Assembly: GCA_905250025.1 (NCBI GenBank)
Contig: CAJNOJ010000025.1
Location: 587,632 to 651,631 of the forward strand
DNA from: Adineta ricciae
Lineage: Eukaryota > Rotifera > Eurotatoria > Adinetida > Adinetidae
DNA: 64,000 nucleotides
Direction of reading: 5' to 3'
The notes below the pieces were generated by a model. It made no database searches, had not been told where the DNA came from, and was given only the letters and a program-made list of their open reading frames with translations. Made by a program: the position numbers and the translations under genes. Each line of letters opens with the position of its first letter. Position 1 is the stretch's first letter. Below are positions 26,632 through 28,771 of this stretch, one piece after another.

Positions 26632-28771
26632 CTATGTGCTCGTTTGTACTTCATTTTGCCAATGATCAGGATGTTCAGTATACCATTTGATTGTCATCCG
26701 AATACCATCATCGAACTTGACCTCTTGTTTCCAGCCTAAACTTTCTAATGCGTCAATCATAACCGAATAACGACAATCATTGAAATATCGATCCTTGACG
26801 TGAATGATCGAATCTTCGAGTTTGACGTCTGGCTTCATAATTTTCAGAAGAATCGCCGCAATTTCCATAACTTTGATCTCATCTTTCGAACCAATATTAT
26901 AGATCATCTTTGTTTTACCTTTACGAAGAATTAAATCCACAGCACGAACTGTATCCGTGACGTAAATAAAATTGCGAACTTGTTTTCCATCACCATGTAT
27001 TGTCATTTTCTCATTAGCCATTATTGTTGTAATAAATCGTGGAATAACTTTCTCAGGAAATTGATACGGACCGTAAACATTATTGCCACGAGTTATAACA
27101 TATGGCAATTTGAAACTTTCGCCATAAGATTTCACAAGAAACTCTGCAGCAGCTTTCGTTGCTGCATACGGATTTGTAGGATTCAGCACTGCGGTCTCAT
27201 GACAACTACCTACATGAAATGAGTAACTTGATATTTGTTTTGATGAGATTGTTTCATCTTACCTGCTGGCCATTCGCCGTAAACTTCATCAGTACTGATA
27301 TGAATGAATTTGCGAAGTTTATTGTAAATTCGACTTGCTTCCAACAAACAATGTGTACCGAATATGTTCGATTCAGTAAAAAGTATACTGTTGCCAAATG
27401 ATGTGTCCACATGTGTTTGTGCTAAATGAAAGAACCAATGAAGAGAAAGTCATCATTTAACGAAATTTTTACCAGCAAAATGAACTACATGTGTAATGTC
27501 GTACTGTTTCATCAAATGTAACATTAAATCTTTATTATTGATACTCGCAACGACTAATTTATATTTCGGCGAGTTCGGTTGTTCAACATTGCCTATATTC
27601 GAGCATGTGTCGAGTTTATCGACGTTGATAACAGAATCTTCGGGATATGTTCTCAGCCAATGATTGACAAAGTTACTACCAATAAATCCGCAACCACCAG
27701 TAACGAGCAAACGTCGTGTTTCGCTCGATTCTTGGCTACTGCTTGATTTGAGATTCGCACGATGAATGCAAATATTTTCGATACTTGTTTTGAGATCCGG
27801 CAATAAATGTGGTGTGTAATAGAGTTTACGTGTTTCAGGTGATAACAATTTCATCCATTGTTCGAGTTTATCGGATGATAAAACATTATTTGAACGACGA
27901 GCAGCTAATCGAGCATTTTGATCTTCGACCGGTTCCAATATATAATCAAGAGGTTCACCTGTTTTTTCTTGGTAAGTTTTAAGAATCCAGTCATGATCGA
28001 CCCTATGTGACAAAAAAAATAAGATGTTTTTCTATTAAAATTTTATTGAACACTAACCATCCTTTGTTGCAAGCATTAACACGACCACCAAGTTTGCCGT
28101 CATGCGTTAATGCCAAAAGAATTGGTAATATATCTGACATGACTGTCATGCTGTTTGGTAACGAGGTGATTTTTTTATAATTCAGAATTTTTGTAATAAA
28201 ATCACGTGAATTTGGATCATCAGATATTGGCATTCGAATGCGAGCACTACAATCGAAGATAACATACGACAGAGACAAGAAAAATAAAGATGTTTTACTT
28301 GATCACATGCGGATATGCATCGATTAATAAGTCAGTTGCACCTTTAACAGTTGAATATGCTGAACCACAGAAATTTGGATGATCATTTTCAGTAAACGGA
28401 TGACTTAAATCAGTTGGATTAGCATATTCATAAATACACCCTGTACCAATGTACAACGTAGGTATCGGTGCAGCTAATTTTGAATATTGCATCGATGCCT
28501 GAGCGATAAACATGGGTGCCAATAGATTATCACGAATATTATCTTTAAGTTTACCCGGCTTTTCTAAATAATCAATGTTTGGAATGCCTTCACCATGTGT
28601 ACGGCCGAGAGAACATATAATACGATCAGGTTTATACGTCAGAATATCTTCTTCGACATCTTTCAGAGATGCCACACGTCGACCTGATACTACTTTTTGA
28701 CCAGCAACGTTGAGCAGGTCTCGGCATTGTCCTCCAATCCAACCTGCTGAGCCATATATTAACCAGAGCAT
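26632..28771 (-). CDS. Fused UDP-rhamnose synthase: epimerase/reductase then 4,6-dehydratase
   Basis: Five exons (28771..28299, 28246..28058, 28002..27473, 27421..27263, 27209..26632) give 642 aa. The N-terminal half (about 1-250) is an RmlD/UER1-like 3,5-epimerase/4-reductase: [11 protein letters not shown] (NAD(P) loop), TGCIYEY, YSTVKG (YxxxK), [10 protein letters not shown] and [10 protein letters not shown], all close to the C-terminal half of plant RHM enzymes. The C-terminal half (from about 320) is a nucleotide-glucose 4,6-dehydratase: [23 protein letters not shown] across a junction, STDEVYG with the catalytic Asp-Glu, and YAATKAAAE. Together they would convert UDP-glucose (or dTDP-glucose) to the L-rhamnose nucleotide in the cytosol. 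The order is opposite to plant RHM. Introns show it is host-resident, though the origin may be foreign. Confidence 0.82.

Follow-up and report, generated by a model that had tools for sequence, protein, structure and literature searches.

A single spliced gene of the rotifer Adineta ricciae encodes a protein in which a 3,5-epimerase/4-reductase half (ER) precedes a 4,6-dehydratase half (DH), and we consider it probable (about 0.8) that the gene product is a soluble trifunctional enzyme that would make activated L-rhamnose from UDP-glucose and perhaps also from dTDP-glucose. The gene lies in a stretch of 64,000 nucleotides of contig CAJNOJ010000025.1 (assembly GCA_905250025.1), here called the window, and positions are counted from the first letter of this stretch. 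The protein of 642 amino acids is called the C25 copy where it has to be told apart from a second, diverged copy on contig C108.

Gene structure

The ER-DH gene extends from 28771 to 26632 on the minus strand and is divided into five exons by four introns, all of which have GT-AG borders and lengths of 51–55 bases in the predicted gene model (Table 1). The model is the best by a simple custom splice score among 21 paths of more than 600 amino acids, and its joined exons yield exactly the 642-residue protein plus a terminal stop codon. The preliminary description of this DNA had proposed one spliced gene with the ER half at the N-terminus and the DH half at the C-terminus, which is confirmed by the gene model, by the PDB matches of each half and by the C108 copy. 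It had also placed the join near 28002–28058, and this placement has to be corrected: positions 28003–28057 are intron 2, situated within the ER half at codon 221, and the actual join of the domains is found at about residues 286–316 (27809–27717) inside exon 3. This exon is a single frame without stop that carries both the RSNN motif from residue 257 (27896) and the GGCGFIG motif at residues 323–329 (27698), with Met271 as the sole methionine within residues 240–340. Since exon 3 alone spans the join, the fusion is independent of any splice choice.

Table 1. Features of the ER-DH gene; positions refer to the window.
Feature	Position	Strand	Remarks
Exon 1, beginning of the ER half, with ATG at 28771 as start codon	28299..28771	-	GSAGWIG (G7, G10, G13), TGC (Cys112), YxxxK (Tyr139, Lys143)
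Intron 1, 52 bases, GT-AG	28247..28298	-	matches C108 intron 1 in position
Exon 2, ER half	28058..28246	-	catalytic Lys177 (FITKI)
Intron 2, 55 bases, GT-AG, inside the ER half	28003..28057	-	not in the C108 model
Exon 3, ER tail, linker and DH start in one open frame; fusion point	27473..28002	-	
ER/DH linker, approximate, residues 286-316	27717..27809	-	alignment of the C25, C108 and L084 proteins
Intron 3, 51 bases, GT-AG	27422..27472	-	matches C108 intron 2 in position
Exon 4, DH half	27263..27421	-	Thr441-Asp442-Glu443
Intron 4, 53 bases, GT-AG	27210..27262	-	not in the C108 model
Exon 5, remaining DH half and stop codon	26632..27209	-	Tyr465, Lys469
ER half (L780/UER1 type), residues 1 to about 285	27810..28771, introns included	-	7jid_A, E 1.9e-61
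DH half (R141/UGD type), residues 317-642	26632..27716, introns included	-	6vlo_A, E 3.8e-89

The neighbouring downstream gene, likewise on the minus strand (25152–26213), has two exons and encodes what by eye is a single-pass membrane protein; it has no Pfam match, and its assignment as a glycosyltransferase is by eye only. Among the 20 window proteins or frames scanned, which comprise one spliced neighbour and 19 frames out of the 39 in the window that reach 130 amino acids, four match the 7tm_1 receptor model (rhodopsin-type) and two match DOP1 models, as befits animal DNA. The telomere repeat (TGTGGG)4, a mark of bdelloid rotifers, gave 38 matches; the backward sequence gave 44 but, as a rotated form of this repeat, is no independent control.

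Relation of the two halves to known enzymes

At E ≤ 1e-3 the first 304 residues match only two distinct sequences in the PDB, 7jid_A (E 1.9e-61) and 4qqr_A (E 1.5e-38), and the Pfam scan assigned no family to the ER half at E ≤ 0.001. The DH half matches 142 distinct PDB sequences, with 6vlo_A at the top (E 3.8e-89), as well as the Pfam models GDP_Man_Dehyd and Epimerase. With the NCBIfam model TIGR01181 (dTDP-glucose dehydratase) it scores 363.4 bits against a cut-off of 365.1; this model serves for naming prokaryote proteins, and a score just below its cut-off does not separate UDP from dTDP. The DH half may also be TGDS-like. Sequence identity amounts to 44% with L780 and 36% with plant UER1 for the ER half and to 49% with R141 for the DH half. 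7JID and 6VLO are the mimivirus proteins L780 and R141, respectively, the products of two separate genes described as an experimentally shown UDP-rhamnose pathway (PMC9614988).

Cys108 and Lys175 of L780 are reported to be confirmed as catalytic by mutagenesis, and Asp125 and Tyr149 are named as catalytic residues of R141 (PMC9614988); all four are identical in the aligned window protein. The agreement with L780 extends to all seven ER residues checked (G7, G10, G13, Cys112, Lys177, Tyr139 and Lys143). In the DH half, Thr441, Asp442, Glu443, Tyr465 and Lys469 correspond to Thr124, Asp125, Glu126, Tyr149 and Lys153 of R141, and the GGxGxIG motif is found at G323–G329. Residue 126 of R141 is Glu in the PDB sequence and is printed as Gly126 in the review (PMC9614988). 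The initial impression that the key motifs are present in both halves was thus borne out, every catalytic residue examined aligning with its counterpart in L780 or R141.

A second copy and further dehydratases in the genome

A search of the animal's own genome (130.5 Mb in 1033 contigs) revealed on contig C108 (L029:4033-5933) a second, diverged ER-DH gene with the same domain order and an open spliced frame. Two introns are present in its model and correspond in position to window introns 1 and 3; introns 2 and 4 have no counterpart. The two proteins are identical at 99 of 259 aligned residues in the ER half (38%) and at 190 of 320 in the DH half (59%). In the ER half of C108 the glycine motif is gone, as are the catalytic Cys and both Tyr and Lys of YxxxK; the DH half keeps Thr-Asp-Glu and Tyr but has Ile in place of the YxxxK lysine. 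Judged by these residues the C108 copy is probably inactive and perhaps acts as a non-catalytic partner. Since ER-DH order and two intron positions are common to both copies, an assembly error is unlikely and the fusion is older than the duplication that gave rise to C25 and C108.

On contig C277 two intronless RmlB-like 4,6-dehydratase frames were found (L030:4135-5199 and C277:108341-109342), so that the window gene is not the sole 4,6-dehydratase of the genome. The best solved relative of the frame L030:4135-5199 is 8du1_A (E 1.3e-146), and the C277 frames may have been acquired from bacteria.

Relatives in viral and prokaryotic contigs

Viral contigs were scanned with full-length, ER or DH queries, two of these scans giving 80 of 289 and 80 of 90 loci. 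The full-length query, used as a single protein, found no relative among the viral contigs, and the ER half had no match among phage records; a profile of three ER proteins found 11 loci in genome contigs. Fused frames were sought as uninterrupted frames of at least 100 amino acids at E ≤ 1e-6 in 283 loci, some of them repeat fetches, a procedure that spliced fusions escape. Both domains in one frame were found on at least two distinct contigs, L084 (identical to L309; order ER-DH) and L071 (order DH-ER), versus at least 82 ER-only and at least 308 DH-only frames in the same 283 loci. The ER-first order accordingly occurs outside the rotifer lineage as well, namely in L084.

L084 (IMGVR_UViG_3300009785_002301) is an uncultivated contig of 4.6 kb filed as viral, with an intronless ER-DH frame that shares 40% (ER) and 53% (DH) identity with the window protein. 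Two more long intronless frames lie nearby, one of them scoring below the cut-off with a GT-D-like model, and no nameable hallmark gene was found on the 4.6 kb; the contig is called giant virus here because of its ER kin. L071 (PBNL01000023.1) is filed as a Euryarchaeota metagenome-assembled genome (MAG) and carries a fused synthase in plant order, next to a frame that matches a starch synthase model; it is probably algal contamination of the archaeal MAG, carrying a plant-order RHM.

Separate but adjoining genes occur with ER before DH (L073, L092, L125 and L246) and with DH before ER (L074, L118, L127 and L081), and in most of these pairs the stop-to-stop frames touch or overlap. With start codons considered, as was done for L073 only (L073:5001-6780, a Peregrinibacteria MAG), the two genes overlap by 8 bases. 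A further ER-first neighbouring pair, L246:3575-5346, is located on a viral contig of 298 kb. Since adjacent pairs are known in both orders, either fused order could arise from an existing gene pair, and ER-first pairs as in L073 and L246 are possible forerunners of such a fusion.

Phylogenetic position

The ER tree comprised 40 rows, namely the 36 top-scoring distinct ER frames and four named rows, and the ER half of C108 was left out as too decayed. In this tree the window ER groups with L780, L160 (the same contig as L082), L084 and L037 at 100/100, and plant UER1 together with L071 forms the next group (100/99). AU tests were carried out on chosen subsets of the rows of the ER and DH trees (14 and 17 rows, respectively). 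Forcing the window ER together with the plant pair 4qqr and L071 was rejected (p-AU 0.00195, 14 rows), the plant type being represented by one Arabidopsis-type UER1 chain (4qqr) and L071; the earlier suggestion of an origin separate from plant RHM is upheld by this rejection. The pairing of the window ER with L780 is unsupported (53/20 in the 14-row tree), and the window ER sits on a long branch (1.51 and 1.8 in its trees).

The DH tree of 60 rows was built from eight named rows plus frames scoring 170 bits or more, after removal of near-identical rows. Here the window and C108 copies pair at 100/99 and belong to a group of eight (100/97) with R141, L160, L084, L071, L161 and L164. The RmlB-like gene C277:102149 falls elsewhere, into the bacterial RmlB clade (99/95).

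Proposed function

How could one polypeptide produce activated rhamnose? In the proposed cycle the C-terminal half, with bound NAD, would dehydrate UDP-glucose, or perhaps dTDP-glucose, to NDP-4-keto-6-deoxyglucose using Asp442, Glu443, Tyr465 and Lys469. The N-terminal half would then epimerise carbons 3 and 5 (Cys112 and Lys177) and reduce carbon 4 with NADPH (Tyr139 and Lys143), releasing NDP-beta-L-rhamnose. The fusion would provide equal amounts of both halves and may shorten the route of the reactive intermediate. Either nucleotide may serve the window enzyme, since R141 and L780 are reported to use UDP as well as dTDP sugars (PMC9614988). An RmlC cupin was not found in the animal's own genome at E ≤ 1e-3 in a search run exon by exon, which a split gene could escape, and in which the control was found in 11 of 14 genomes. 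As no RmlC was recognised, there is no obvious route through a stand-alone epimerase of bacterial type, which fits epimerisation by the ER half. Gene structure, domain order, homology, catalytic residues and the second genomic copy are seen directly in the DNA; from them we infer the activity, the nucleotide preference, a location in the cytosol and what the sugar is used for, and likewise that the animal produces rhamnose.

Alternative explanations and origin of the fusion

That two adjoining genes were falsely merged by the assembly or the gene model is barely conceivable, given that a single exon crosses the join without a stop codon and that a second locus, on C108, carries the same join. 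Another objection to the synthase function would be that only the DH half is active and delivers NDP-4-keto-6-deoxyglucose, with the ER half as a fossil. There is a precedent in mammalian cells, where TGDS is reported to make UDP-4-keto-6-deoxyglucose for another purpose (PMC12488480), and the ER half of the C108 copy has indeed decayed; however, the window ER retains seven of seven L780 residues, and we regard this explanation as very improbable. As to the source of the synthase, the best matches of both halves outside their own genome appear to be giant-virus-type enzymes, in a sampling without fungal, protist and animal sequences, so that 'viral' may mean 'non-plant eukaryotic'. Horizontal acquisition of the parts is plausible because the nearest non-self sequences compared are those of giant viruses. 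A fusion shared with L084, be it a ready-made gene received from a giant virus or one passed from the animal to the virus, would be compatible with the synthase function and would agree with the ER-DH order of L084, with the 100/100 group of the window ER with L780 and three viral-contig rows and, among the sequences compared, with the best matches of both halves. Moreover, a clade with L084 is not rejected, neither for the window ER held with L084 alone (AU p 0.19) nor for both DH copies (AU p 0.373, 17 rows; 0.267 when held with L084, R141 and L160), and a concatenated tree of nine rows joins window protein and L084 weakly (44/78.8). Against such a shared event, the ER of L084 pairs with the unfused L037 (98/96, 40-row tree), where a stop codon closes the ER frame ahead of the following gene; L084, L082 and L037 have four residues after GRTHG which the window ER and L780 lack; and the DH of L084 pairs with plant-order L071 (96/85, 60-row tree), although the 17-row tree leaves this pairing open. 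With the viral kin possibly being simply non-plant eukaryotic in this comparison, we consider a shared fusion rather unlikely.

We lean, with low certainty, towards independent fusions in the window gene and in L084. An independent fusion of ordinary eukaryotic genes within the lineage, for example of a TGDS/UGD-like dehydratase and an ER gene, would need no virus, would be equally compatible with the function and seems to us the likelier course of events. It is consistent with adjoining ER and DH genes in both orders (ER first in L073 and L246, DH first in L074 and L118), with a fusion that predates the C25/C108 duplication as indicated by the two shared intron positions, with window and L084 linkers that are unlike each other, and with the post-GRTHG residues and the branching of L084 (with L037 and L071), which oppose a shared fusion. 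On the other side, the TGDS likeness of the DH half enters as our assumption, and none of the AU tests rejects a fusion shared with L084. A more far-reaching scenario, to which we give little credence, combines these elements: a giant-virus-type ER-DH synthase, already fused, would have passed between a giant virus and an animal early in this lineage, gained introns and duplicated, providing a rhamnose route apart from the nematode dTDP route and plant RHM, with the inactive paralogue on C108 perhaps retained as a partner without catalytic activity.

Comparison with known rhamnose synthases

The literature searched, with subscription papers mostly outside it, yielded no description of an ER-first fusion and no paper on rhamnose biosynthesis in rotifers. 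In a paper on rotifer lectins all five mentions of rhamnose concern lectins (PMC8878817), and a paper on foreign genes in bdelloid rotifers contains no word beginning with 'rhamnos' (PMC3499245). Other fusions are described in protists and algae, namely of RmlC with RmlD and of RmlC with NRS/ER (PMC9741107, PMC6556577). Judged from the comparisons made here, the proposed chemistry and the domain types are known ones, the ER-DH order is rarely seen, and there is a tentative lead towards giant viruses.

Plant RHM is described as a bi-domain protein with the dehydratase first; the same study counts four bi-domain proteins from Nematoda and reports that the remaining eukaryotes in its trees, where they have both activities, carry them on two distinct genes (PMC3220709). 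Rhamnose synthesis in nematodes is described as a TDP-linked pathway of several proteins (PMC13080230, PMC10151413). C. elegans BUS-5/RML-2 is a protein of 342 amino acids similar to TGDS (PMC10151413). Like plant RHM, the window protein would have both activities on one polypeptide; unlike plant RHM, it has the dehydratase second instead of first, and its ER half lies outside the plant branch. The four nematode bi-domain proteins, known here by count and not by order, are animal proteins with both domains like that of the window (PMC3220709). The closest solved relatives of the respective halves are mimivirus L780 (UGER) and R141 (UGD), which have the same catalytic residues; in mimivirus these are two separate genes, whereas the window has one spliced fused gene. 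L084 shares the ER-DH order in one frame with the window protein but differs in having no introns, a different linker and a frame cut by the contig end. If true, animals would have a second way of making rhamnose, by a single protein whose halves are reversed and whose parts resemble viral ones, and the window gene would offer a case on which exchange of genes with giant viruses can be studied.
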